Part shown: positions 545 to 18,746 of the stretch, piece after piece
How the letters are laid out: every line of letters starts with the position of its first letter
How positions within the stretch are numbered: position 1 is the stretch's first letter
Source of the DNA: Oceanospirillaceae bacterium
GTDB lineage: Bacteria > Pseudomonadota > Gammaproteobacteria > Pseudomonadales > Balneatricaceae
Direction: 5' to 3'
NCBI GenBank assembly: GCA_013215375.1
Contig: JABSRB010000051.1
Span: forward strand, 1 to 35,981
Length of the DNA: 35,981 bases
The notes under the pieces: model-generated
The model's database searches: none
Seen by the model: the letters and a program-made list of their open reading frames with translations, nothing else
Told to the model about the DNA's origin: nothing
Made by a program: the position numbers and the translations under genes

Positions 545-1495
545 TTACGGGAAGGGCTTAACAACCAGACTATTAAATATTTGCCAGTAGCTGGATTTGT
601 TGTTATCAAATACAAACCATTTGGTTAGTATTTTTCTAAATTGTTCTGTCTTTCTTATGCTTTTTATGGCCATATTAATATCGTTAATTCGCTGCTCTCC
701 CCAAGGGGTGTTAGTGCAAGCTATAGCCCCTAATGGCGGATCTTGTACCTGCTCAGATAAGGGGACAAAAGATAAATTATCATGTAAATTTAACGAGTTT
801 TTGAAATATTTAAAGGTGTAACTATATTCTAGAATGAAATCAATGCGCTTTGATGCGAGCATTTTAAAGATGCCTTCTGTAGAATCTTGCCCCGCTCTTC
901 GATAAATATTTGCGTACCCTTTTGCGTCGTTGATTAATCCATCTAATCGCTCACCAAACCCCCTGCCGGCTGGGATACCAAAAGTTAGTGTTTTGTTTTT
1001 GAGAAGTGCTTTTAAACTGAGAGATTGTTGTGTTTTTTTTAGCTGTTCTTTATCAATAATAATGCCATGAGGCTCATAAACTAAATATGGTATTGATGTT
1101 GTGACTAAATCTGCTCTGGTATCGTGTATCCAAGTTGAAAAACACAGTGGTTTTTTAGCTTTTAGTAATAAAAGGACACGTTTTAACGGGATGATTTTAT
1201 GACTGTGGTTATATTGCGGGAGCTGATTAATAATAGCTTTTTGGACTAGATCACCAAAACCCTGCTTTTTCAGCTTACCGTTTAAAATATAGAAAGGGGG
1301 AGCATCATTGATGACCCATAGAATCTTGGGCAATGGTTGGTTTAATGTTTGGGCATTAAGAGAAAAGCAAGAAAAAGAAAATACAAAAACGGCAAAAGTA
1401 CTAATTAGAGCGACTTTTGTGTGTAGATGAAAGTAGCTTTGATATTTTAGCATAATGATCAAGTGTCGGTATAAGCTCTGAATAACAGTTATCAT
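545..1495 (-). CDS. Periplasmic solute-binding-like protein (TIGR02285-type)
   Basis: A 316-residue exported protein. A hydrophobic segment at about residues 27-47 ends in a plausible signal-peptidase region (SLNAQ). The mature part begins with a strand of the type ILWVINDAPPFYI, followed by a glycine-containing turn and a QGFGDLVQKAI helix. This layout is typical of the amino-acid-binding-like (SBP_bac_3 fold) proteins grouped as TIGR02285. These stand alone without ABC permeases and their ligands are mostly unknown. The start is supported by AAGGTG on the minus strand (1501-1506), 5 nt from the ATG; an internal Met at residue 15 would give a more ordinary signal peptide. No transporter genes are adjacent, so a role in transport is not implied. 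The related-looking gene at 6799-7683 is probably another member of the broad fold. Confidence 0.75.
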   Translation of the reverse strand: MITVIQSLYRHLIIMLKYQSYFHLHTKVALISTFAVFVFSFSCFSLNAQTLNQPLPKILWVINDAPPFYILNGKLKKQGFGDLVQKAIINQLPQYNHSHKIIPLKRVLLLLKAKKPLCFSTWIHDTRADLVTTSIPYLVYEPHGIIIDKEQLKKTQQSLSLKALLKNKTLTFGIPAGRGFGERLDGLINDAKGYANIYRRAGQDSTEGIFKMLASKRIDFILEYSYTFKYFKNSLNLHDNLSFVPLSEQVQDPPLGAIACTNTPWGEQRINDINMAIKSIRKTEQFRKILTKWFVFDNNKSSYWQIFNSLVVKPFP

Positions 1496-5668: not shown

Positions 5669-5714
5669 CATTTGTTACGAATATCTTGTACAGCCAATAT
5701 TTTTGGTTTGAACT

Positions 5715-5788
5715 GACTAACGACTAACGACTAACGACTAACGACTAACGACTAACGACTAACGACTAACGACTAACGACTAACGACT
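5715..5788 (+). repeat. Heptanucleotide tandem array (GACTAAC) x10
   Basis: Ten perfect head-to-tail copies of GACTAAC (5715-5784) are followed by a partial GACT (5785-5788). The array ends 9 bp before the ATG of the EamA transporter gene at 5798. Perfect identity of all units implies recent expansion or active slippage. The unit contains no ATG and 7 is not a multiple of 3, but the array is outside the reading frame. Copy-number change would therefore alter promoter-to-gene spacing or the mRNA leader rather than the protein. Confidence 0.95.
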
Positions 5789-5797
5789 GGAACCCCC

Positions 5798-6798: not shown

Positions 6799-7683
6799 AT
6801 GAAATTGCTCTGTTTGCTTTTGATGATGTCTGTCGGTATGCCAGCTAATTTATGGGCTAAAGAAATAACTACTTTTACTTATATGGCCCCCAAAGAAAAA
6901 GATAAAGGCCCCAGAGCCAGATACGGTGAGGCGCTACTTATTTTAGCGCTGGAAAAAACTATTGAGAGTCACGGTCCGTACCGCATTAAATTAAGTCCTA
7001 AAATGAATAAAAAACGTGCTTTAGCCTCATTAGAAACTAACAGCCTCGAGAATTTCTTCGTCAAACATTCAATTTCCAAAGGTGCCTCTGAAAAAATGGG
7101 TTACGTCAATTTTCCAGTAGATCTGGGAGTGGTCGGTTATCGAGTTTTTTTTGTATCACCCAAGGCGGCGGCTGCATTTAGTCAGGTTACAGACTTAGAG
7201 CAATTAAAAAAATTCTCAATCACACAAGGATTAGGTTGGTTAGATACGCAGATACTACGTCACAATGGCTTTAACGTGATTGAGGGAACGAGTTATGAAG
7301 GACTGTTTAAAATGGTTTCTAGAAATCGGGTAGATTTGTTGCCAAGGGGAGTTAATGAACTGTTCTATGAGTATCGAAGGCTTTCCAAAAACATGCCGTT
7401 AATCGTCAATACTAGTATTGTTCTCTACTATCCACTACCCCGCTTCTTTTTTACAAACAAACAAAATGTTGCTGCTATCGAGCGCATCCAAACGGGGTTA
7501 GAAATTGCTTACAAAGACGGTTCGGTGCATAAGCTTTGGAGAGAATATTATGCTGAAAGTGTTGGATTTGTAGATTTTAAAACGGCTAAAATATTTAAAA
7601 TTGAGAACCCTTTTTTAGAGGGTGTAGTTGATTCTTATAAGCAATATATTATTAGCCCTGGGCAATTAATACCTCCAAAGTGA
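6799..7683 (+). CDS. Exported periplasmic solute-binding-like protein, unknown ligand
   Basis: A 294-residue protein with a clear Sec signal peptide (residues 1-20, ending LWAKE). The rest has the alternating pattern of type 2 periplasmic binding folds: an early strand TTFTYMAP, a helix with YGEALLILALEKTIES, and later LEQLKKFSITQGLGWLDTQIL and YEGLFKMVSRNRVDLLPRGV. Proteins of this shape often occur without ABC permeases, next to signalling genes. Here the sensor-kinase gene begins 101 bp downstream on the same strand. A ligand-sensing partner for that kinase is therefore a reasonable inference, not shown. AAGGGA at 6786-6791 is a good Shine-Dalgarno 7 nt before the ATG, and TATTATAGT upstream may be its -10 region. 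A hypothetical protein of another fold cannot be excluded. Confidence 0.7.
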   Translation: MKLLCLLLMMSVGMPANLWAKEITTFTYMAPKEKDKGPRARYGEALLILALEKTIESHGPYRIKLSPKMNKKRALASLETNSLENFFVKHSISKGASEKMGYVNFPVDLGVVGYRVFFVSPKAAAAFSQVTDLEQLKKFSITQGLGWLDTQILRHNGFNVIEGTSYEGLFKMVSRNRVDLLPRGVNELFYEYRRLSKNMPLIVNTSIVLYYPLPRFFFTNKQNVAAIERIQTGLEIAYKDGSVHKLWREYYAESVGFVDFKTAKIFKIENPFLEGVVDSYKQYIISPGQLIPPK

Positions 7684-7718
7684 TGTTGTACAAAGATATC
7701 AGTGTAGTTTTTGGCACA

Positions 7719-7734
7719 CTGTCGTGAGCGACAG
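7719..7734. promoter_or_regulatory. Palindrome CTGTCG-N4-CGACAG upstream of the sensor-kinase gene
   Basis: CTGTCG (7719-7724), TGAG, CGACAG (7729-7734) forms a perfect 6-bp inverted repeat centred about 58 bp before the kinase ATG. The same core with the same 4-bp centre spacing recurs at 9696-9711 before the secreted-protein pair. It has no T-run after it, so it is not a terminator, and it is a candidate binding site for the nearby NarL-family regulator. Confidence 0.6.
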
Positions 7735-7784
7735 GTAGCTAAAAAAGGCTTGCGTGTTCTGCTGATTTTTTAGACACTTAGCGC

Positions 7785-9608
7785 ATGTTCTCCTTTGTAG
7801 TTAGGTATAAATTAATAATAGTTCTCCTTTTATTGGGCTGTAGCACAGAGATTTTTGCTAATAAATATCAGTCACTAGAGGATAATTGGCGCTTTCAATA
7901 CGGTGATGAAGCGCAGTGGTCAACTAATCTTTTTGATGATAGTCATTGGCCTGTCGTTAGCGTGCCTGGTATTTTAAACCAGATACATGGCCGGTCTCGC
8001 AACGGCTGGTATCGTATTCATTTTGATACACAATTATCCAAAATCAGCCAGTCGATTCTTATCGAGTCTATTCGTCACAGTGATGAAACTTGGTTAAATG
8101 GTGTGAAAATTGGTGCGCAGGGGAGTTTTGAAGAGCGCTGGACTTTTAACAATACCAACCCGCAAAGCATGATCAGGCTATATGGAATCCCCGAGGGGTT
8201 ACTGATAGAGCGCGATAACGTACTGGCTATCAAGGTTGCAGTGGGCTTTGGAGAAGCCTGGGGAGCGCTTTACCCCGGTGGGGCTGGTATTTATGGTGAT
8301 GTCATTCTTGGCAGTAGTAATACGTTACAAAAGAGCCAGCAAAATCAGCTAATCATCACAAGCTCATTAGATGTGTTATTTATCACTTTAGCGCTGGTGG
8401 ATGTACTCATCATCATTTTTTTATTAAAAAATGCTCTTGGAAACTTCCCTGAATTCAAATGGTTGATTGTTAGTAGTCTGCTCATGTTGATGGGGACTAT
8501 GTCCCATGATTTTTTTTACATACATCGCTTAAGCTTCGTCGATAGTAATTTATTTCTGATACTGACTTTGTTATTCACGCCTGTCGGCGTAGCCAGCTAT
8601 TTTTGGTCTCAAAACAGAGATATAAAAGCGGAGTATTTACAAGGAGCAGCTCTTTGCTGCTTACTTTGCGCCATTATTATATTAACCCCATCAGTGCCCG
8701 CGTATTTCAAAGTAGCTAGTTGGTATTTATATTGTATTATATCTTTTTTGTGTTTTTTCTACGCGCTGTATATTGCTATTAAACGTGTTTATCAGGGTGA
8801 TGTAGGCTCCATTGCTCAGTTGATTGCGCTAGCTGCCTATTTATATTCAATACGAACCCAGTGGATGCTCCATGAAAATTTTGGTCACCGAAATATCCAA
8901 ATTGGCAGCTTATTATACCGTTACGGGATTCTATTCGCCTACTTCCAGCAAATAGCTCATTTGCGTCTAGATTATAAAAAACTATCTGAGCGTATTGTTA
9001 ATATCACAGAGAAAACTCGTCATTCGCTCGCCAGGGAGCTTCATGATGGCTTAGGGCAACACTTAGCCTCGATGAAAATGCACATACAATTGCAGAATAA
9101 TAAAAGAGTCTCTTCGCATACTGATTATGTTGAAATTGAATTAAAAAATGCATTGCTTAACCTTAGAAGATTGATTAATGGGCTGCACCCGATCGAAATA
9201 GATGAATGCTGTATTTCAAAAGCCATCGAAAAGAAGTGCCTTAGTTTGTCTCATCAATATGGCATTGAGATCTTGTTTCAAAGTGGGACTTACAAGTTAG
9301 ATAAAGAGATTGAACAGCATATCTTTAGAATATTTCAAGAGTGTGTGGCTAATGCAATCAAGCACGGAAAACCGACTCAAATAATCGTCATTATGTCATT
9401 AAAGAATCAGCAACTAACTTTAACAATAGAAGATAACGGGTCGGGGTTTGATACAGAAGTTGAACAAGTACAAAAAGCGAATGGTGGGTTCGGTTATATC
9501 AGCCTTAACGAGCGGGTAGCGTTATTAAATGGTGCGATAAAAATAGTACCAGGGATTCATTGCGGCGTTCAATTGACCATTACTTTACCTATCACTAGTA
9601 AGCATTAA
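7785..9608 (+). CDS. NarL-type sensor histidine kinase with extracytoplasmic jelly-roll domain and 7TM region
   Basis: A 607-residue membrane kinase. A Sec signal or first hydrophobic segment (about 8-26) is followed by a periplasmic region (about 28-175) resembling a galactose-binding/glycoside hydrolase family 2 N-terminal jelly roll (LEDNWRFQYGDE, WYRIHFDT, ETWLNGVKIG, GGAGIYGDVILG). About seven hydrophobic helices (about 195-390) resemble 7TMR-DISM receptors. The cytoplasmic end is HisKA_3 plus HATPase_c: H-box LARELHDGLGQ with phospho-acceptor H420, N-box NAIKHG with N523, G-boxes IEDNGSGF and GGFGYISLNERV. This type pairs with NarL/LuxR-type regulators, and one is encoded at 15358-15975. 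The jelly roll suggests carbohydrate sensing, but the ligand is unknown. No strong Shine-Dalgarno precedes the ATG. Confidence 0.9.
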   Translation: MFSFVVRYKLIIVLLLLGCSTEIFANKYQSLEDNWRFQYGDEAQWSTNLFDDSHWPVVSVPGILNQIHGRSRNGWYRIHFDTQLSKISQSILIESIRHSDETWLNGVKIGAQGSFEERWTFNNTNPQSMIRLYGIPEGLLIERDNVLAIKVAVGFGEAWGALYPGGAGIYGDVILGSSNTLQKSQQNQLIITSSLDVLFITLALVDVLIIIFLLKNALGNFPEFKWLIVSSLLMLMGTMSHDFFYIHRLSFVDSNLFLILTLLFTPVGVASYFWSQNRDIKAEYLQGAALCCLLCAIIILTPSVPAYFKVASWYLYCIISFLCFFYALYIAIKRVYQGDVGSIAQLIALAAYLYSIRTQWMLHENFGHRNIQIGSLLYRYGILFAYFQQIAHLRLDYKKLSERIVNITEKTRHSLARELHDGLGQHLASMKMHIQLQNNKRVSSHTDYVEIELKNALLNLRRLINGLHPIEIDECCISKAIEKKCLSLSHQYGIEILFQSGTYKLDKEIEQHIFRIFQECVANAIKHGKPTQIIVIMSLKNQQLTLTIEDNGSGFDTEVEQVQKANGGFGYISLNERVALLNGAIKIVPGIHCGVQLTITLPITSKH

Positions 9609-9627
9609 TCACTTTAATAGAGATGAA

Positions 9628-9642
9628 TTAGGCGGAGCCTAA
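9628..9642. repeat. Short perfect hairpin
   Basis: TTAGGC (9628-9633), GGA, GCCTAA (9637-9642) is a perfect 6-bp inverted repeat soon after the kinase stop. It is the first of three hairpins within about 95 bp. Its role is unclear; it may protect the mRNA 3' end. Confidence 0.45.
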
Positions 9643-9664
9643 ATCATCAAGGGTTTAATTTCCC

Positions 9665-9685
9665 GCCCCTCGGGGGGCTTTATTT
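9665..9685 (+). terminator. Probable intrinsic terminator after the sensor-kinase gene
   Basis: GCCCC (9665-9669) pairs with GGGGC (9674-9678) around a 4-nt loop and is followed by TTTATTT. The GC-only stem plus U-rich tail fits a short rho-independent terminator that separates the kinase transcript from the secreted-protein operon. Confidence 0.65.
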
Positions 9686-9735
9686 GTCTTTATAACTGTC
9701 GCTTACGACAGTTATAAAGACTAGCGCATTATAAT
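9686..9735 (+). promoter_or_regulatory. Perfect 16-bp inverted repeat overlapping an activator-type promoter
   Basis: GTCTTTATAACTGTCG (9686-9701), loop CTTA, and CGACAGTTATAAAGAC (9706-9721) match perfectly over 16 bp. The core CTGTCG-N4-CGACAG is the same as at 7719-7734. A consensus TATAAT (9730-9735) follows. The -35 position, about 17 bp upstream, falls inside the right arm and has no TTGACA. This arrangement fits a promoter that needs an activator bound over the -35 region. The repeat could instead act as an RNA hairpin. Confidence 0.65.
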
Positions 9736-9776
9736 AATCTAGAAGGACTATCGTCATCACCTTCATAGGCATTGTT

Positions 9777-11897
9777 ATGTATTTCTACCCGATTTTTTTC
9801 AGCGCTTTATGCTTTTTTTCAGCTCCCCTTTTAGCAGATCCCCCAAGTAAACCTTTTACCTTTGGTAATACACTGGTTACTAAATTTAGTGGCACTGTTT
9901 TGGGGGTTGATGAGAAAGATTTGAATCCTACCAATCATTTGATAAATGAAACTTTCATTGATCCAACGGGGGCGGCAGCGATTATTTTGAATACGCATAC
10001 CCCTGATAATATATGGCGTGGTCAATTATTAAAGGTCGAAAAAAAGCAGTCTTTTCCGATACCGGCTCTCGCGGTAGGGCAGGTTTTTTCCGCAACTTAT
10101 GACAGTGCAGGAAATGCATATTTAGCCGCAACGTCAAGTTACGGCTTGAACCTTATTAAGCCTGATATTTGTGAGCGCGATAGGCTCGATAAAAAGGGAA
10201 ACTCTCTTTGTGAAACTATTGATAAAACAGACATAGACAGATTACCGGAAAGAATTACAACAGGTCACCCATCGGCTAGATGGATGGTGGGGCAGTTTGG
10301 TAAAACGGGTTCTCCAGGCTCTGTATGGAAGGTCGATGGGCACAGTGGAAAAATTAGTTTGTTTACTAATATTACCTTAGCAGGCGTAGCTAACTCTGGG
10401 GCAGCTCTGGGAGATATTAGCTTTGATGAAGCACACAACCAGTTCTTCGTATCCGACATGGATACCGGCATGGTGCATCGAATTTCTAATACAGCGAAAC
10501 ACCGAGGTGAAGAGCTAGACTTCTTTGATCACGGGATAACCGCAAGAACTGTTCTGAGCTTTCCTGTCATCAAACATAATAATGATGATCGCATAGATAT
10601 TACCAGTGAGAAATTTAAACCACTGGATCAGAAAACCTGGGGGTTTAGCCAGCTGGGAAGGCAAGTCTGGGCATTAAAGGTCTATAAAAATAGGCTTTAC
10701 TACTCAGTCTGGAATGGAGAAGAGCTAGGTTCTGAGATTTGGTCTGTCGCTCTTGATATAGATGGCCGCTTTTCAGAAGATATTCGATTAGAGATTTCAG
10801 TGGCTAAATACCAAGGCCATTTAAAAATTACAGATATTACCTTCAGTAAACAAGGTGCGATGATCTTAGCGCAACGTGGCGCTATTGCGACCAGCTATGA
10901 CTATAAAATCGCGATAGAAAGTAGTGACGCTAGAGTATTACGTTATTGGTTGGAACAGCCTAATGATCCGCAGACTAATAGTATGTGGGTTTCGCAAGCT
11001 GAAGAATATGCAGTGGGCATGGCGGATGACCATCGTAACTCTAGTGGTGGTGTCGCCTTAGGATACGGCTACAATGAACAGGGAGTATTAGATACACAAA
11101 GCTGTAAGGATGCTCTTTGGACAACGGGACACTCGTTGACCAAGGAAGGCTCTAAAAGCGTATCAGGGTTACAGGGAAGTCCATCTAGACCGGTTAGAAA
11201 TTTCAATACTCCACCTACAACCAGCTATTTTTTCGATGTTTATCCTGAATCTGAGATAGAAGCTGTTCAAGGTTGGTTAGGTGATGTGGAAATATACACA
11301 CAAGGGTGTGTTTGTCAGAATATTTGCGCTATTTCTGCTGCATCAGATCAAAAGCCAGTGATAGTTAAGTTACCCGCTAATTCATCACCTCCTGAAATAA
11401 ATTTACCAGAGCCCCCAGAGTTTCCGGAGTTACCCGATTTTCCAGAATTTCCCGAATGGTGTCCCTATGGCTTATGTGTAATCACAGTGGTTTGTATCCC
11501 TCCATTAGATTTTTGGCCCTGGTGTGGCAGTGAAGAAGATGAATTACCCGCTTGTATGGAGATGGCTATGTCCCCCGCTGGGCCTTTCTTAAACGGTAGT
11601 ACTTGGTCTATGCCTATGGGCGTGACTTCACTCAATAACAATACGATAGACACCTTGCGTATATTTTCAAATACCTCTGGCGTCAATATAACCAACGGTA
11701 ATATTTTCTCAGTTGGGTTTCCTACTCCCACCTTTACAGCGACAGCAAACCAAGACGCTGTCTTTGATTTGTGTGGATATAACAGTGCGGATGCGCAAAC
11801 AGGAAAACCTTATGATTGCTGCTCAATGAAAGTTAAATTTAAAGTACGAGAGTCGCAATCAGCTGAGGATCATCAAACCTTGGAGGTAGTGCAATGA
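9777..11897 (+). CDS. Large secreted protein of unknown function, beta-propeller-like N-terminal part
   Basis: A 706-residue exported protein that I do not recognise as a named family. Residues 1-20 form a Sec signal (ending LLADPP). About 30-430 has repeated short strands with motifs such as DSAGNAYLAATSS, GSVWKVDGHSGKI, DEAHNQFFVSDMDTGMVHRI and FSQLGRQVWALKVYKNRLYYSVW, which resemble NHL/SMP-30-like propeller blades. About 530-560 is a proline/acid-rich linker (PEPPEFPELPDFPEFPEW). The last 140 residues contain Cys pairs and an Ig-like beta region ending in DCCSMKVKFKVRE. Its stop overlaps the next gene's start (ATGA), so the two are translationally coupled and probably act together at the cell surface or outside the cell. 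No enzyme motif is visible. Confidence 0.75.
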   Translation: MYFYPIFFSALCFFSAPLLADPPSKPFTFGNTLVTKFSGTVLGVDEKDLNPTNHLINETFIDPTGAAAIILNTHTPDNIWRGQLLKVEKKQSFPIPALAVGQVFSATYDSAGNAYLAATSSYGLNLIKPDICERDRLDKKGNSLCETIDKTDIDRLPERITTGHPSARWMVGQFGKTGSPGSVWKVDGHSGKISLFTNITLAGVANSGAALGDISFDEAHNQFFVSDMDTGMVHRISNTAKHRGEELDFFDHGITARTVLSFPVIKHNNDDRIDITSEKFKPLDQKTWGFSQLGRQVWALKVYKNRLYYSVWNGEELGSEIWSVALDIDGRFSEDIRLEISVAKYQGHLKITDITFSKQGAMILAQRGAIATSYDYKIAIESSDARVLRYWLEQPNDPQTNSMWVSQAEEYAVGMADDHRNSSGGVALGYGYNEQGVLDTQSCKDALWTTGHSLTKEGSKSVSGLQGSPSRPVRNFNTPPTTSYFFDVYPESEIEAVQGWLGDVEIYTQGCVCQNICAISAASDQKPVIVKLPANSSPPEINLPEPPEFPELPDFPEFPEWCPYGLCVITVVCIPPLDFWPWCGSEEDELPACMEMAMSPAGPFLNGSTWSMPMGVTSLNNNTIDTLRIFSNTSGVNITNGNIFSVGFPTPTFTATANQDAVFDLCGYNSADAQTGKPYDCCSMKVKFKVRESQSAEDHQTLEVVQ

Positions 11898-14800
11898 AAA
11901 AGCTATTAACACTGAAAAATCTATTTGCTGCCATTACCTTAACAATGCTTTTGCCGTCTGTTTTGCAGGCGAACGAACTAGGTAATCCAGGTTTTGAAAA
12001 TGATACTAGTGGAAGCTATGGGGATAATATTGCTCCGCAACTTAACGTAGCCCCCTGGGTTTCTTTGAGTTTAGATAATGTTGTTCAAGTTGACGGAGTG
12101 GGCGGGCAAACAACATATGGCAATAGAGGACCTGAATCGGATGCATCCGGCATACTTGGCGTGAGGCATTACTTGGATATGCAAGGTGATGGGGAGATAT
12201 ACCAATCTTTTACTACGCCAAATGACTGCTCTGGAGAGGTTAGATTTGGCGGAAGCTTTTCAACACGTCATAACGAAGTGGGAAAAGCGCATATAGAAAT
12301 AAGGGAAGGAGTGGGAAACACCGGTGCGTTGGTAGGTACTACTACTAATTTGAGCTTACCAGTGGGGAACTCAGAAACAGATCCGTGGGTTAGGGCGAAC
12401 TATACTGCATTTTTAACAGCGTCCACCACATACTCATTCGTGATAGTGATGGATAATTACATAAATTTTGATGAAGGCTATGTTAATTTTTTATCTGGAC
12501 CTTGTCAGGATGATACAGTTATTGATCCACCGCCACCGCCAGAGTCTGTATGTTTAGAAATAAAACATGAGGTTAGCTGTACTTCAAAGGGATGGAGTGT
12601 TTCTTTAACACACGATCCTTCATCATTACTGCAGCCGGATCACTATAATTTATCACCCATTACTTCCGGGGTTACCATAAGTGGTAGCTCGCCAAATTAT
12701 ATTCTAAACGGTGCTCTACCTAATACAGCTGTTGATCTTCTGGTTTTTGGCACCCAAAAAGGTAAGGGTAATTTGTTAGGGACGGACCGATGCTGTGAAG
12801 AGAGCAGAATCCATGTCGATATTCCCAATCAAGCATGCCCAATAACTTGCGACTCAGGGGAAGAGTTGGTTAACGGTGTGTGTCAAGTGATCGAAGAGCC
12901 AGATATATCGCCTTCCTGTAACAGTAATATCGTTATTGTGGTCGATGAATCAGGGTCTATTGCGGATAATCCAGGGGATCCTAATCGCGTTAGGCTAGAA
13001 GTAAGAAATCTTCTAAAAGGTTTTAAAGGTCACGGTTCAAAAGCGTCGGTTATCCATTTTGATACCAACGCTCGTTTAATCAATTCAATGCTTGAAATAG
13101 CCACTGCACCCGGTCAAGAAATAGGCTTTTCTGGAGGTTATACTCCCTCTACGGGACAGACTAACTGGGAGGCGGGGTTGAGCTTGGCGCTGGCAGAAAT
13201 AAACAGTAACCCTGGGCCTGAACTGGTATTTTTTATTACCGATGGGCAACCTAATCGATACTTGGACAATAATGGAGCAGTGCAGACGGGCTCGGAAGCT
13301 ACTTCGGTGAATGAAGCAGTCGTTATTGCCAACCAAATAAAAGCAGCGGGTGCTAGGATCTTTTCTATCGGCGTCGGCAATATCGCAAACTCCTCAACCG
13401 CCGCCGCTAACCTTCAGGCCATCGCCTCAAGTGGGGATGCGATAACAGGTTCCATGAATGATTTAGCGGGTATTGTCGCTGATTATACGGCAAAATCATG
13501 CGCAGATATTCATTTACAAAAATACACGGTTGCTGATAAAAGGATAGATTTAACCTATAAAGAATTGAGTGACGCCAAGCCCACGTTTGATATTGCTATC
13601 ACTAATAATACACCGGGAACTTTGACTGGCATTGTTGTTGAAGATGCGCTGCCTACCCCCCAACTTACTTTTAACAGCATTGTAAGCACAAGTGCGGGGA
13701 CTGCTACGCAGCTGGCTAATGTGCTGACTTGGGTATTGCCCCCGATGGCCGCTAATACCACCGAGTATTTAAGATTTAAAACCAATATTAGCGGCGTAGA
13801 CGTTGGGGAGCAGGTTTATAACTATACGCAAGTAGTAGCAGTAGATCAGACAATCGCCTCTAATGTACTGTTAGCTAACCCGACTGTGGGCCCACTTAAT
13901 CCTAATGATAGAGACGAAGCTAGGGATTATGTCTATGTCGTTAAGTCTTCTCCTTGCATGGCCACTGTAGAGAGACCGGAAGGCTGCTTAGGAATTAATA
14001 AAGTGCTTACTCCGGGAGAGGGTAATTGTGAGTCAGGGCAAGCTTGTGAATATACATTATGGATAAATAATAACAGCAGCGTACCTTACGCAGGCGGTTT
14101 TTTGATAGGGGATAATTACACTCCTTCTGGTAGTGCTCCCATAGATTCTATACAGGCATCTGGCGGAGCCCCTGCCAATATCTGTGATACGCAACCGACT
14201 AGCATTCCTTTTAGCTGCACCCAAAGTACCGACATTCCAGCTTATACTAGGTGGAAGTATGTTGTCACTACTACTTGGGCGACCGATGCCACTAAAAATT
14301 GTTTTACGGTGAATAGCAGAAAAGTATGTGTCGCTAATTCATCAGGGAATAAAAGCAGTGCCAAAGAACCGAAACAGCAGCTATTGCTTTCTAAATATGG
14401 CCCTAAGCGATGTACAGCAGGAGGGGTTTGCCACTTCACCATTGAGATGAAGAACGCATCAGATAAGGCCATTGAGCAGCCTATCACTATTGTCGATAAA
14501 CCCAATAAAATGTTTGGTAGGGTGCAGGGGGCCTCTAATGGCTGGAAGTGTCAGCGTGGCTCGAGGAGTTATCAGTGTGTCAATCCGACCTTAGAGCTTG
14601 CGGCCAACGCGAGTACAAAGTTTGCCTTGAGTTTGTCTGTGCCCAAAAACATGAGCGGTAAAGTCACTAACTGTGTACGTGGACAGGGGGCTAGTGATCG
14701 GAGCGACAGCATCATGTTACTACAGACACTGTTGCTAAAAGCAGGCCACGATCCTAGAGGCGTGGATGGCCAATTAGGGCCGGGTACGCGCAAAGCGATG

Positions 14801-15274
14801 GCTGCTTATGCAAAGGCCAATGGCCTGAAAAGTCAGGACGCTAAAACGCTACTGCAGCATTTACAACAAGATGTCCCTGAACTCTTGTCCAATACCGCCT
14901 GTACTACTGTGCGAATTGATAGGCCTAAACGTCAGTGCAAATCGGGCACAGAGTACCAGGGAGGGGTTTGCGTTAGCATTAAAGTACAAGGTTGCCCTGC
15001 TGGGTCCAATTGGACAGGCAAGCAGTGTGTGACTTGTGAAGAGGGCAGTCTTTGGAATCAAGAGGACAAAGCTTGCGAATTTCCTGTCGCAGAAGTGAAG
15101 TGTCAAAAAGGTGAAAAGCGCGAAGGAAACCAATGCATCAAAGTTAAAAAACCTAGATGTATCCCCATTATAACCCGCTACAGTGAAATGCTTGGGATGT
15201 GTGTTCCCAATATAAGCATTGGCATCGGTATTGGAGGGCCTTCAAGTCCAACAAAGGATGACGATCATCCTTAA
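11894..15274 (+). CDS. Giant secreted VWA-domain protein with DUF11-like and peptidoglycan-binding-like regions
   Basis: A 1126-residue exported protein with a Sec signal (1-26, ending LQANE). About 27-200 looks like a lectin-type beta sandwich (NPGFENDTSG and following). A proline stretch (PPPPPES) precedes a second beta domain. A von Willebrand A domain spans about 343-540 with an intact MIDAS: DESGS (D351, S353, S355), a threonine in TPSTGQTNW and D450 in FITDGQP. DUF11-like repeats follow (about 560-670 and 850-930). About 934-985 resembles PG_binding_1 (LLQTLLLKAGHDPRGVDGQL). The C-terminal 110 residues are Cys-rich with repeated G-x-x-C knots. The gene overlaps the preceding one by 4 bp. 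Metal-dependent adhesion or complex formation is plausible; no catalytic domain is visible. Confidence 0.82.
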   Translation: MKKLLTLKNLFAAITLTMLLPSVLQANELGNPGFENDTSGSYGDNIAPQLNVAPWVSLSLDNVVQVDGVGGQTTYGNRGPESDASGILGVRHYLDMQGDGEIYQSFTTPNDCSGEVRFGGSFSTRHNEVGKAHIEIREGVGNTGALVGTTTNLSLPVGNSETDPWVRANYTAFLTASTTYSFVIVMDNYINFDEGYVNFLSGPCQDDTVIDPPPPPESVCLEIKHEVSCTSKGWSVSLTHDPSSLLQPDHYNLSPITSGVTISGSSPNYILNGALPNTAVDLLVFGTQKGKGNLLGTDRCCEESRIHVDIPNQACPITCDSGEELVNGVCQVIEEPDISPSCNSNIVIVVDESGSIADNPGDPNRVRLEVRNLLKGFKGHGSKASVIHFDTNARLINSMLEIATAPGQEIGFSGGYTPSTGQTNWEAGLSLALAEINSNPGPELVFFITDGQPNRYLDNNGAVQTGSEATSVNEAVVIANQIKAAGARIFSIGVGNIANSSTAAANLQAIASSGDAITGSMNDLAGIVADYTAKSCADIHLQKYTVADKRIDLTYKELSDAKPTFDIAITNNTPGTLTGIVVEDALPTPQLTFNSIVSTSAGTATQLANVLTWVLPPMAANTTEYLRFKTNISGVDVGEQVYNYTQVVAVDQTIASNVLLANPTVGPLNPNDRDEARDYVYVVKSSPCMATVERPEGCLGINKVLTPGEGNCESGQACEYTLWINNNSSVPYAGGFLIGDNYTPSGSAPIDSIQASGGAPANICDTQPTSIPFSCTQSTDIPAYTRWKYVVTTTWATDATKNCFTVNSRKVCVANSSGNKSSAKEPKQQLLLSKYGPKRCTAGGVCHFTIEMKNASDKAIEQPITIVDKPNKMFGRVQGASNGWKCQRGSRSYQCVNPTLELAANASTKFALSLSVPKNMSGKVTNCVRGQGASDRSDSIMLLQTLLLKAGHDPRGVDGQLGPGTRKAMAAYAKANGLKSQDAKTLLQHLQQDVPELLSNTACTTVRIDRPKRQCKSGTEYQGGVCVSIKVQGCPAGSNWTGKQCVTCEEGSLWNQEDKACEFPVAEVKCQKGEKREGNQCIKVKKPRCIPIITRYSEMLGMCVPNISIGIGIGGPSSPTKDDDHP

Positions 15275-15357
15275 AACAAAACAGAGCCTGATTGGATCGC
15301 TAGTCAGGTTGTGTTGTGCTGATAAATCAGACGTTTATAGTGGATGTAGACTAAGAT

Positions 15358-15975
15358 TTAAATTTCAAAAATAGACAGTGAAAGCGCTTTAGCGACAGCG
15401 TTTGTTCTGCCGTTGGCATCGAGCTTTATGCAGCAATTGGATAAGTGAAAACGTACTGTTCTTTCTGTAATATCAAGTTCTTTAGCCACGCTTTTGTTGC
15501 TATGCCCATTACTGATATAACGTAAAATTTCTGACTCTCTGCGACTTAATGTATTGATGTTATCGTGGAAATTTCGCATTACTTCAACCAGCGAGTTTGA
15601 AATATATTGCTCATCGCAAGCGACACTGCGTACTGCTATCTCCAACTCGTCAAAGGCATCTTCTTTTAGTATATAACCTGCTAAACCTAAGCTGAGTAAT
15701 TGATTTACTAAATTAGGCTCAGAGTGCATTGTTAGCGCTAGTACACGAACTTGCGGGTAGTCCTTATCAATCGCTTCAATGATTGACTCTATACTGGTAC
15801 CAGGCATTGATATGTCGATTAACACTACGTCTGGGTTATGAGTTTGTATAAGGCCTAATAACTCGTCTCTATGTTCGCACATAGCCACTAGCTGGCAATC
15901 ATTAATCGCAGAAAAAAGGCTGTTCACACCTTCAAGGAATATCCTGTGGTCGTCTGCTGCAACAATTCTTAGCAT
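15358..15975 (-). CDS. NarL/FixJ-family response regulator
   Basis: A 205-residue two-domain regulator. The receiver domain (1-120) has the acidic pair D8/D9, phospho-acceptor D54 in VLIDISMPG, T82 and K104. The LuxR-type helix-turn-helix (about 142-203) reads LSRRESEILRYISNGHSNKSVAKELDITERTV. All key receiver residues are intact, so it should be phosphorylated, most likely by the HisKA_3 kinase encoded at 7785-9608. It is convergent with the secreted-protein operon, 83 bp from its stop. A TATAAT lies on the minus strand at 15993-15988, upstream of the ATG. Its probable target is the CTGTCG-N4-CGACAG palindrome found twice in this locus; this is inferred from position only. Confidence 0.93.
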   Translation of the reverse strand: MLRIVAADDHRIFLEGVNSLFSAINDCQLVAMCEHRDELLGLIQTHNPDVVLIDISMPGTSIESIIEAIDKDYPQVRVLALTMHSEPNLVNQLLSLGLAGYILKEDAFDELEIAVRSVACDEQYISNSLVEVMRNFHDNINTLSRRESEILRYISNGHSNKSVAKELDITERTVRFHLSNCCIKLDANGRTNAVAKALSLSIFEI

Positions 15976-16453: not shown

Positions 16454-17746
16454 ATGAAAAAAATAAATAGAAGACAACTCTTGCAAGGAATGGTTACAGG
16501 CGCAGGCTGTGTTGCAGCAGCGTCTATGTTTGGTAGCGCAGCCTTTGCAGCAGATACACGTATTCGTCACTTTTGGTGGGGTAACCCGTCACGTGATGAG
16601 CGAACTTACAAAGTAATTGATCTGTTTAAAAATGCCAATCCAGGTTTCGATGTCGCTGGTGAAACTATCGGCTGGGGTGACTACTGGACTAAAATGGCTA
16701 CTCAAACAGCCGGTAAAAATATGGCTGATTTAGTGCAGATGGATTACCGGTTTCTTTTCGAATACGTGCATCGTGGAGCATTACTGCCATTAGATGAGTA
16801 TTTCGGAAAGACTTTGCACTTAGAAGATTTTGATAAAAGTGCGATTGCTGGTGGCATGGTAGATGGCAAGTTATACGCGCTAAACATCGGTTCAAACTCA
16901 CAAGTGATGATTTACAACAAACGTTTATTTGCAGAAGCGGGCATTGAGTTTGATCCCATTAAGTGGAATCAAGCCGAACAGATGGATATCGCTAAAAAAT
17001 TGTCGGCTTCTACACCTAAAGGTGTACACGGAATCGATGATGCGACCATGAATCCAATAGTGTGGGAAGCTTGGACCCAGCAAAGAGGCAAGACTTTCTA
17101 TGCGGATGGTAAAGTGCAAGCTGTCGCTGCCGATCTTGAATCCTTTTGGGAATACTGGAAAGAAATGCGTGAATCAGGTGCTGCACCTTCTGCCGATGTA
17201 TCTGTGGCCAACTTGGGCTTCAAAATGACGGAGTCAGGAATAGTTACAGGTGCGACTGCTATGTCACAATTCTGGTCTAACCAGATAGTGGGTGTGCAAT
17301 CACTAATGAAAGATGAGATTGGTGCCGCAATGTTGGCCCATAAGAAAGGCGGTATGCCTGGTCAGTTCATTAAGCCTTCCATGTTTATGGCGTTGACTCG
17401 TGATACTAAAAACCCTGAATTGGCGACAAAGTACATGAATGCCTGGGTTAATGATCCTGCGCAAACGGCTATTTTAGGATTGGAGCGCGGAGTACCTGCT
17501 TCCTCTAAAGTACGTGCGGCGTTAGAGCCTAATTTGACGGTTTCTGAAAAAGTTTCTGTTGATTACTTCAATGCGATTCAAAGTAGTGTTGGGCCACTGC
17601 CACCACCACCACCAAAAGGTGCTGGCGAGGTAAATGCTGCCTTTATCCGCATGGGTACTAATGTGATCTTGGGCAGGATATCGATTAAAGACGGTGCTGC
17701 TGAATTTATCGATGAAGCTAGTTCAATCGTAGAGCGCGCCTCTTAA
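16454..17746 (+). CDS. ABC transporter sugar-binding protein (family 1), Tat signal
   Basis: A 430-residue periplasmic binding protein of the family 1 (maltose-type) group. The N-terminus is a twin-arginine signal (NRRQLLQGMVTGAG, cleavage near AFAAD). The mature start RIRHFWWGNPSRDERTYKVI and the KMATQTAGKNMADLVQMDYR segment match oligosaccharide/sugar-binding proteins of CUT1 importers. Near the C-terminus (about residues 376-382) a run of prolines, encoded by a (CCA)n stretch, occurs in GPLPPPPPKGAGEV, a region commonly Pro-rich in this subgroup. GGGAGAAG at 16441-16448 is a strong Shine-Dalgarno. It is the first gene of the import operon; a hairpin after it may raise its expression over the permeases. 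The imported compound is unknown. Confidence 0.93.
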   Translation: MKKINRRQLLQGMVTGAGCVAAASMFGSAAFAADTRIRHFWWGNPSRDERTYKVIDLFKNANPGFDVAGETIGWGDYWTKMATQTAGKNMADLVQMDYRFLFEYVHRGALLPLDEYFGKTLHLEDFDKSAIAGGMVDGKLYALNIGSNSQVMIYNKRLFAEAGIEFDPIKWNQAEQMDIAKKLSASTPKGVHGIDDATMNPIVWEAWTQQRGKTFYADGKVQAVAADLESFWEYWKEMRESGAAPSADVSVANLGFKMTESGIVTGATAMSQFWSNQIVGVQSLMKDEIGAAMLAHKKGGMPGQFIKPSMFMALTRDTKNPELATKYMNAWVNDPAQTAILGLERGVPASSKVRAALEPNLTVSEKVSVDYFNAIQSSVGPLPPPPPKGAGEVNAAFIRMGTNVILGRISIKDGAAEFIDEASSIVERAS

Positions 17747-17802
17747 TATAAGCAGGTTTTTCTGTATCTTTGGCTACAGAGCTTAAGTGAAGACGAGAGC
17801 TG

Positions 17803-17827
17803 CAAAATAACCGCAAAGGTTATTTTG
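17803..17827 (+). promoter_or_regulatory. Intercistronic hairpin between binding-protein and permease genes
   Basis: CAAAATAACC (17803-17812), loop GCAAA, GGTTATTTTG (17818-17827) is a perfect 10-bp stem with no T-run beyond its own arm. Its place between the binding protein and the first permease matches the mRNA-stabilising or attenuating hairpins known in maltose-type operons, where they give excess binding protein. Confidence 0.6.
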
Positions 17828-17852
17828 TATGCTCTTTGCATTGAGGATTCCT

Positions 17853-18746
17853 ATGCGTAAATTTTTTGTGAGAAACCTGCCAGGCTATGCATTTTTAACG
17901 CCTTGGTTACTCGGTTTCTTTTTGCTGGCTCTCGGGCCAATGTTAATTTCATTATATTTGTCCTTTACCAAATGGGATATGGTCGGCGATCCACAATGGG
18001 TCGGCCTCGCTCAATATGAATACATGTTTCTTAAAGACAAGCGTTTTTGGCAGTCTTTAGACGTCACTTTTACCTATGTAATACTTGCAGTACCGGCGCG
18101 TTTAGCTTTTGCGTTGATGATAGCGATAGTGCTGGATAAAGGTATCCGGAAAATAGGTATATATCGCGCGCTGTATTACCTCCCCTCAATTTTGGGCGCA
18201 TCGATTGCGATTGCCATATTGTGGCGTGAGATCTTTAATATAGATGGTGTGGTCAACGCGGTGTTAATTAACTTTGGCATCCAGGGACCGAACTGGATAG
18301 GCAATCCAGATACCTCTTTGTACACCTTAGTCGTGCTGGCAATGTGGCAGTTTGGCTCGCCGATGCTGATCTTTTTGGCAGGCTTGCGCAATATACCCAC
18401 AGAGTTGTATGAAGCCGCTGAAATAGATGCCGCTTCTAAAGCGAAGCAGTTTTTCTCGATCACTTTGCCGCTATTAGCACCAGTGTTGTTCTTTAATATT
18501 ATTTTACAGACGATAGAAGCATTTAAGACCTTTTCCAGTGCATTTATCATCTCAAATGGCGATGGATCCCCGGCGGATTCACTACTGTTCTTTACCATAT
18601 ATCTGTTTAATGAAGCCTTCACCTATTTCCGTATGGGCTACGCATCCGCATTGGCCTGGACACTATTGATAATAATAGGTTTGTTTACCGCCGTATCTTT
18701 CTATACCTCCAAGTACTGGGTGTATTACGAAAATGAGAGGGATTAA
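17853..18746 (+). CDS. ABC sugar permease, MalF/UgpA-type (CUT1)
   Basis: A 297-residue inner-membrane permease with six predicted helices (FLTPWLLGFFLLALGPMLISLYLSF first). The cytoplasmic EAA loop is YEAAEIDAASKAKQFFSITL, which docks the ATPase. I chose the ATG at 17853 because GAGGA at 17843-17847 precedes it by 5 nt. An in-frame ATG at 17829 falls just after the stem-loop and has no Shine-Dalgarno. It pairs with the second permease, starting 2 bp after its stop, to form the channel for the substrate delivered by the upstream binding protein. Confidence 0.94.
   Translation: MRKFFVRNLPGYAFLTPWLLGFFLLALGPMLISLYLSFTKWDMVGDPQWVGLAQYEYMFLKDKRFWQSLDVTFTYVILAVPARLAFALMIAIVLDKGIRKIGIYRALYYLPSILGASIAIAILWREIFNIDGVVNAVLINFGIQGPNWIGNPDTSLYTLVVLAMWQFGSPMLIFLAGLRNIPTELYEAAEIDAASKAKQFFSITLPLLAPVLFFNIILQTIEAFKTFSSAFIISNGDGSPADSLLFFTIYLFNEAFTYFRMGYASALAWTLLIIIGLFTAVSFYTSKYWVYYENERD

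Follow-up and report, generated by a model that had tools for sequence, protein, structure and literature searches.

The locus at positions 6799 to 15975 of a 35,981-nucleotide stretch of DNA from an Oceanospirillaceae bacterium (assembly GCA_013215375.1, contig JABSRB010000051.1; the whole stretch is the window, and its numbering is used throughout) holds five open reading frames (ORFs), four on the plus strand and one on the minus strand. It is two modules joined together, one formed by a sensor histidine kinase and a NarL-type response regulator, and the other by two large secreted-type proteins, giant A and giant B (A and B below). The explanation favored here, with a probability of roughly 0.7, is that a conserved two-component module with its own operator controls neighboring secreted cargo, and that in this 5.0-Mb genome the cargo is an A-B pair acquired horizontally. 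The initial annotation had treated the five genes as a single system; its gene descriptions hold, and the co-inheritance that they were thought to share does not, as a co-occurrence analysis across genomes recovered the kinase with the regulator and A with B, and the two modules were not found together elsewhere.

The kinase and the regulator are a true pair, because they are convergent neighbors at all six other kinase loci. Full-length kinase orthologs (40-61% identity) were identified in six other gammaproteobacterial genomes, one from the same genus (G003), two from the same family (G790 and G032) and three from other families (G921, G801 and G1052), and in each of them the convergent neighbor is an ortholog of the regulator (43-67%). 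The regulator thus probably belongs with this kinase, as had been proposed, and not with a different one. In the relatives, the stop codons of the two genes overlap or have 5 to 582 bp between them; in the window, where A and B intervene, the distance is 5750 bp. Both HisKA_3 and HATPase_c of the kinase, which has an H-box, and the receiver and GerE helix-turn-helix (HTH) domains of the regulator were matched above the Pfam cut-offs, the regulator being NarL-type by Pfam and NCBIfam, and the kinase histidine and the receiver aspartate are invariant across the ortholog alignments. Partial kinase matches were found in five more genomes, to the kinase domain in three (G791, G030, G011) and to part of the sensor in two (G873, G991); a further genome search around G801 gave no additional kinase ortholog.

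The kinase was described at the outset as having an external jelly-roll sensor and a seven-transmembrane (7TM) region. The jelly-roll type is supported by matches to PF13364 (beta-galactosidase jelly roll) above the cut-off in two of three kinase orthologs scanned (L117 and L118, not L158), and the Pfam scan of the window's own kinase gave no match to this family. A tblastn search with the sensor region matched nine plasmid records, four of which were annotated as beta galactosidase jelly roll. For the 7TM part, the match to 7TMR-DISM_7TM (PF07695) had an E-value of 0.22 and 11.9 bits, below the cut-off of 29. Judged from the jelly-roll family by itself, a carbohydrate signal is plausible.

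A palindrome associated with these genes is very probably the operator of the regulator, since it recurs at the six other kinase loci and since the ERTVRFH stretch of the regulator, which we take to be its recognition helix, is identical in seven of seven orthologs (it differs in a paralog). In the window the exact core, TGTCGN4CGACA, occurs twice, some 50 bp upstream of the kinase gene (7720) and 67 bp upstream of the gene for A (9697), and nowhere else; a scan of the intergenic stretches upstream of the gene at 6799 and of the regulator gene, allowing up to two mismatches, gave no such palindrome. The proposal that a shared palindrome ties the transcription units together is therefore upheld for the kinase and A and does not extend to the other two genes. 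The genome as a whole contains 11 exact core sites, two of them at this locus, and at this density the chance of a core site in a 600-bp stretch is 0.0013, a value that applies to a single locus and was not multiplied, as the loci are partly kin.

The longer form of the palindrome, CTGTCG-N4-CGACAG, is present at all six other kinase loci, being exact in five (L118, L119, L157, L158 and L159, beside the kinase or the cargo gene) and carrying one mismatch in the sixth (L117). One locus (L157) holds two such sites, in the gap between kinase and cargo and after the cargo gene. The long-form sites stand near the starts of the kinase gene and/or of a secreted cargo gene, and the identity of this cargo changes: judged by signal peptides assessed by eye at all loci, the secreted-looking neighbors of the kinase include an 829-amino acid (aa) FG-GAP protein (L118, L119), a 534-aa FG-GAP protein (L157), a thrombospondin type 3 repeat protein of about 1,560 aa (L158) and a 106-aa lipoprotein-like protein (L117), the contig of L159 beginning shortly before the kinase so that its upstream side is out of view. 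Among 32 other exact core sites from four genomes (the window's own, G003, G790 and G032), the long form accounted for seven of the nine intergenic sites and none of the 23 intragenic ones (Fisher p 1.1e-5), with four of these seven making up two pairs of conserved sites, common to G790 and G032. In the latter two genomes, long-form sites precede genes of 128-aa and 316-aa (DUF7450) secreted-looking proteins (L163:2540-3014, L165:3001-4037), which are possible further members of the regulon. At the 92 loci with relatives of A (the Ciceribacter locus, 11 loci from sampled genomes and the best 80 of 199 profile matches) there is no long-form site. Its presence at the kinase loci and absence from these 92 indicate that the operator follows the sensor module rather than A-B.

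A and B are a true pair as well, being adjacent or fused in 87 of the 92 loci: A is followed by an adjacent B in 68, the two are fused in 19, and five show neither arrangement (L016, L017, L029, L030, L032). Four locus pairs have identical A propellers (L018/L051, L020/L100, L021/L102, L039/L040), so at most 88 loci are distinct. On a Ciceribacter megaplasmid, found by tblastn, A and B are encoded in a single ORF of 1805 aa, and this fusion (L003:14797-24926) lies directly upstream of genes for a chaperone, an usher and a spore-coat-U-type pilus protein. The genes overlap by 4 nt (ATGA) in the window and likewise in the nearest relatives, L035 and L062. The description of two overlapping large proteins of secreted type was thus confirmed, A consisting of a predicted propeller followed by a proline-rich linker and a cysteine-rich end, and B having Pfam matches to VWA, DUF11 and PG_binding_1, the last of which by eye falls inside the DUF11-like stretch. 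The propeller domain of A was modeled by AlphaFold (AF2) with a predicted local distance difference test score (pLDDT) of 88.8 and a predicted template modeling score (pTM) of 0.91, and a Foldseek search with A returned top PDB matches at E-values of 2e-7 and weaker, with TM-scores by query length of 0.16-0.41 among the 50 listed; the top matches are presumably beta-propellers (strictosidine synthase, nidogen, SMP-30-like). The predicted model of B was poor (pLDDT 58.8), and no fold search was made with it. A domain suspected by eye to be common to B and the tail of A was searched with jackhmmer, and the matches listed were A proteins only. At L017:7632-12281 the A homolog is flanked by a 405-aa protein, cysteine-rich by eye and with no Pfam match, and by a DsbA-like thioredoxin protein, neighbors that are fitting for a cysteine-rich secreted product.

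The distribution of A is patchy, and the giants look foreign to this lineage. In a draw of 398 genomes across the phylum, a two-row profile of A matched 11, the window's own among them, and a 13-row profile matched 199 stretches in 84,980 species genomes. The best 80 of these stretches were retained as separate loci, and most of the 80 are labeled Alphaproteobacteria, Mesorhizobium foremost. A scan of the genome contigs with the single A protein gave no match where the profile scan did. Close to home, A was found only in the window's own genome, that is, in 1 of 57 close relatives and 1 of 390 genomes in an even draw of the order, and among 369 Gammaproteobacteria there was one further match, weak and partial (G928, E 2.8e-6). 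Whole-genome searches revealed no A in five of the kinase genomes (G003, G032, G801 and, by inference, G921 and G1052), and G790 was inspected locally, around the kinase. Conversely, the window's kinase and regulator were searched at the A loci with matches that were weak or limited to the HTH. The base composition of the two genes bears no sign of foreign origin, with 42.9% G+C for A and 45.3% for B versus 44.2% in sampled sequence from the same genome.

A tree of 41 A sequences groups the window's A with those of L035 and L062, which come from metagenome-assembled genomes (MAGs) labeled Campylobacterota, with support of 98/93. At L035 the A-B genes lie directly behind an HATPase_c kinase, whose HisKA match is below the cut-off, and an OmpR-type regulator, and at L062 directly behind an OmpR-type regulator near the contig start; neither set belongs to the class of the window's pair. 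The full run at L035:883-11174, in a Sulfurovum-labeled MAG, comprises an M23 peptidase (EnvC-like by eye), a membrane kinase, the OmpR-type regulator, A and B. The stretches before A in L035 and L062 are somewhat alike by eye, with no exact shared 9-mer among those listed. A third directly adjacent case is L054, where a divergent kinase and a receiver protein adjoin a fused A-B. A scan of the 92 A-relative loci (L003 and L016-L106) gave receiver or kinase ORFs at 11. A general association of A-B with two-component genes was considered and rejected, as several of these cases are distant or split by unrelated genes, and no enrichment is claimed; a transporter operon separates the two-component gene from A-B in L046, and the coordinates indicate similar spacing in L045, L052 and L077. 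A wider formulation, in which kinase, convergent regulator and operator are a portable cassette with swappable secreted cargo and A-B has joined unrelated two-component systems on separate occasions, stands at about even odds.

Several observations weigh against the explanation favored above. The short core also turns up by chance: 11 of the 92 A-relative loci have it, and L159 carries one copy within an ORF. Across whole genomes it shows no enrichment relative to a reversed control, with 160 versus 272 sites at up to one mismatch in the own genome and 10 versus 11, 8 versus 6 and 7 versus 6 exact sites in the other genomes. The distance from operator center to start codon varies from 28 to 278 bp, -10-like sites are weak at several operator loci, and one long-form site in the own genome precedes an apparently unrelated 553-aa gene (L144). 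Two pairs of loci, L118/L119 and L158/L159, each come from a single genus and hence are not independent, the branch of the window's A is long and its composition atypical in the tree, and the labels of the MAGs nearest to it may be wrong. The core counts near those of the reversed control imply that any regulon is small, and a large genome-wide regulon was rejected for this reason. The same near-background counts would suit the view that the palindrome serves an unrelated regulator or forms an RNA hairpin or terminator, and that A-B happened to land beside the two-component genes. A perfect inverted repeat could indeed fold, and a terminator-like GC-rich stem with a T-rich tail is seen by eye just upstream of O2, the site before A (at about 9661-9686). 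However, no T-run follows O2 itself, and from locus to locus the central four bases change and the arms stay the same, a pattern that is unlike a structural hairpin and fits protein binding better. Given also that the long form accompanies the kinase-regulator pair in all six relatives (once with a mismatch) and is lacking at every A-relative locus, this view is improbable.

Dedicated co-inheritance of all parts, as first suggested, would have the protein encoded at 6799 as the ligand receptor for the kinase in a five-gene system. All five genes adjoin, and homologs of this protein can neighbor sensor kinases, the 66% ortholog in G006 (L156) lying near or next to a hybrid kinase. Against this stand the kinase genomes searched without finding A and the A loci without the long operator, and with them the record of the 6799 protein itself: no homolog was seen beside the kinase in the six relatives (two of them on short contigs), G003, which bears the kinase, has none at an E-value of 1e-5, and no operator precedes the gene at 6799 in the window. 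This scheme is largely refuted and highly improbable. The protein had been described as periplasmic binding-like, which is borne out indirectly: it has no Pfam match of its own, and SBP_bac_3 (PF00497) is matched by three of the nine proteins aligned with it, a set that includes a second binding-like protein of the window (545-1495, 19% identical). Its membership in the unit was not borne out, as it shows no link to either module, and it is probably a neighbor outside the unit.

If a conserved module with changing cargo is the correct explanation, the jelly-roll sensor would detect an extracellular, probably carbohydrate-like ligand, and the kinase would phosphorylate the NarL-type regulator, which in this form would bind CTGTCG-N4-CGACAG at the kinase and cargo promoters (O1 and O2) and raise the expression of the kinase and of A-B. 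A TATAAT lies about 29 nt past the center of O2, a spacing that would suit activation. The cargo gene would differ from lineage to lineage, A-B having been gained horizontally and inserted between the kinase and regulator genes, with a second operator to control it, and A and B may be exported and act together as a complex of the envelope or surface, made of two chains here and of one elsewhere. It is plausible that such a complex serves in adhesion or in the matrix. A role as an envelope-integrity, peptidoglycan-tethering or carbohydrate-processing pair is a tentative alternative, in keeping with the PG_binding_1 match in B, the M23 peptidase gene that heads the L035 run of two-component genes and A-B, the SMP-30/lactonase-class propellers among the fold matches of A, and the presence of the VWA pattern DESxS in only 6 of the 87 B loci examined. 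The window's B, with a DESGS sequence resembling a metal ion-dependent adhesion site (MIDAS) and keeping the DxSxS motif intact, and the chaperone-usher pilus genes adjoining the Ciceribacter fusion lean slightly toward an adhesin or matrix element.

It is already known that two-component systems can control a surface protein encoded next to them. The PprA/PprB-BapA system of Pseudomonas similarly places a giant surface protein under a two-component system, with a kinase of another class, other cargo and another gene order. Systems with 7TMR-DISM-type sensors and those of the NarL/UhpB type (HisKA_3) share with the window's pair an extracellular jelly roll, a membrane region, a HisKA_3 kinase and a NarL-type regulator, whereas the window's pair differs in its 7TM match below the cut-off, convergent gene order, own operator and lineage-specific secreted cargo. 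Likewise, B shares its domains with DUF11/VWA surface-protein families (PF01345, PF00092), from which it is set apart by its propeller partner A. PpoS/PpoR was considered as the same system and dismissed, being of the BarA/UvrY type (PMC8523701). A literature search at the level of listings and abstract openings encountered no description of the kinase, the operator or the pair, in agreement with the initial statement that no described system of this composition was known. What appears new is the conserved operator with changing cargo and the occurrence of A-B beside different two-component systems. If correct, this would show how surface or matrix proteins are rewired, with a sensor keeping its operator while swapping the secreted protein that it controls, and it would provide a candidate operator for an uncharacterized regulator family along with an undescribed secreted protein pair.

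Table 1. Features of the locus, in window coordinates.
Feature	Position	Strand	Details
SBP_bac_3-like secreted protein	6799..7683	+	294 aa; some homologs match PF00497; probably outside the unit
Operator O1 (predicted)	7719..7734	.	TGTCGTGAGCGACA, exact; long form CTGTCGN4CGACAG; about 50 bp upstream of kinase start
Sensor histidine kinase	7785..9608	+	607 aa; jelly roll, membrane region, HisKA_3, HATPase_c; Pfam, orthologs 40-61%
Operator O2 (predicted)	9686..9721, core 9696-9711	.	within a perfect inverted repeat with 16-bp arms
Giant A	9777..11897	+	706 aa; predicted secreted beta-propeller, proline-rich linker, C-terminal Cys-Cys region
Giant B	11894..15274	+	1126 aa; VWA with MIDAS-like DESGS, DUF11, PG_binding_1 match, cysteine-rich tail
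NarL-type response regulator	15358..15975	-	205 aa; Pfam/NCBIfam; orthologs 43-67%; probable kinase partner

Outside the locus, a tandem array of the heptamer GACTAAC occupies positions 5701-5791, directly upstream of an EamA-type transporter gene, and a sugar-type ATP-binding cassette (ABC) uptake gene group begins next to the locus (16454-18746), with the gene for an SBP_bac_8 protein followed by that for a permease.

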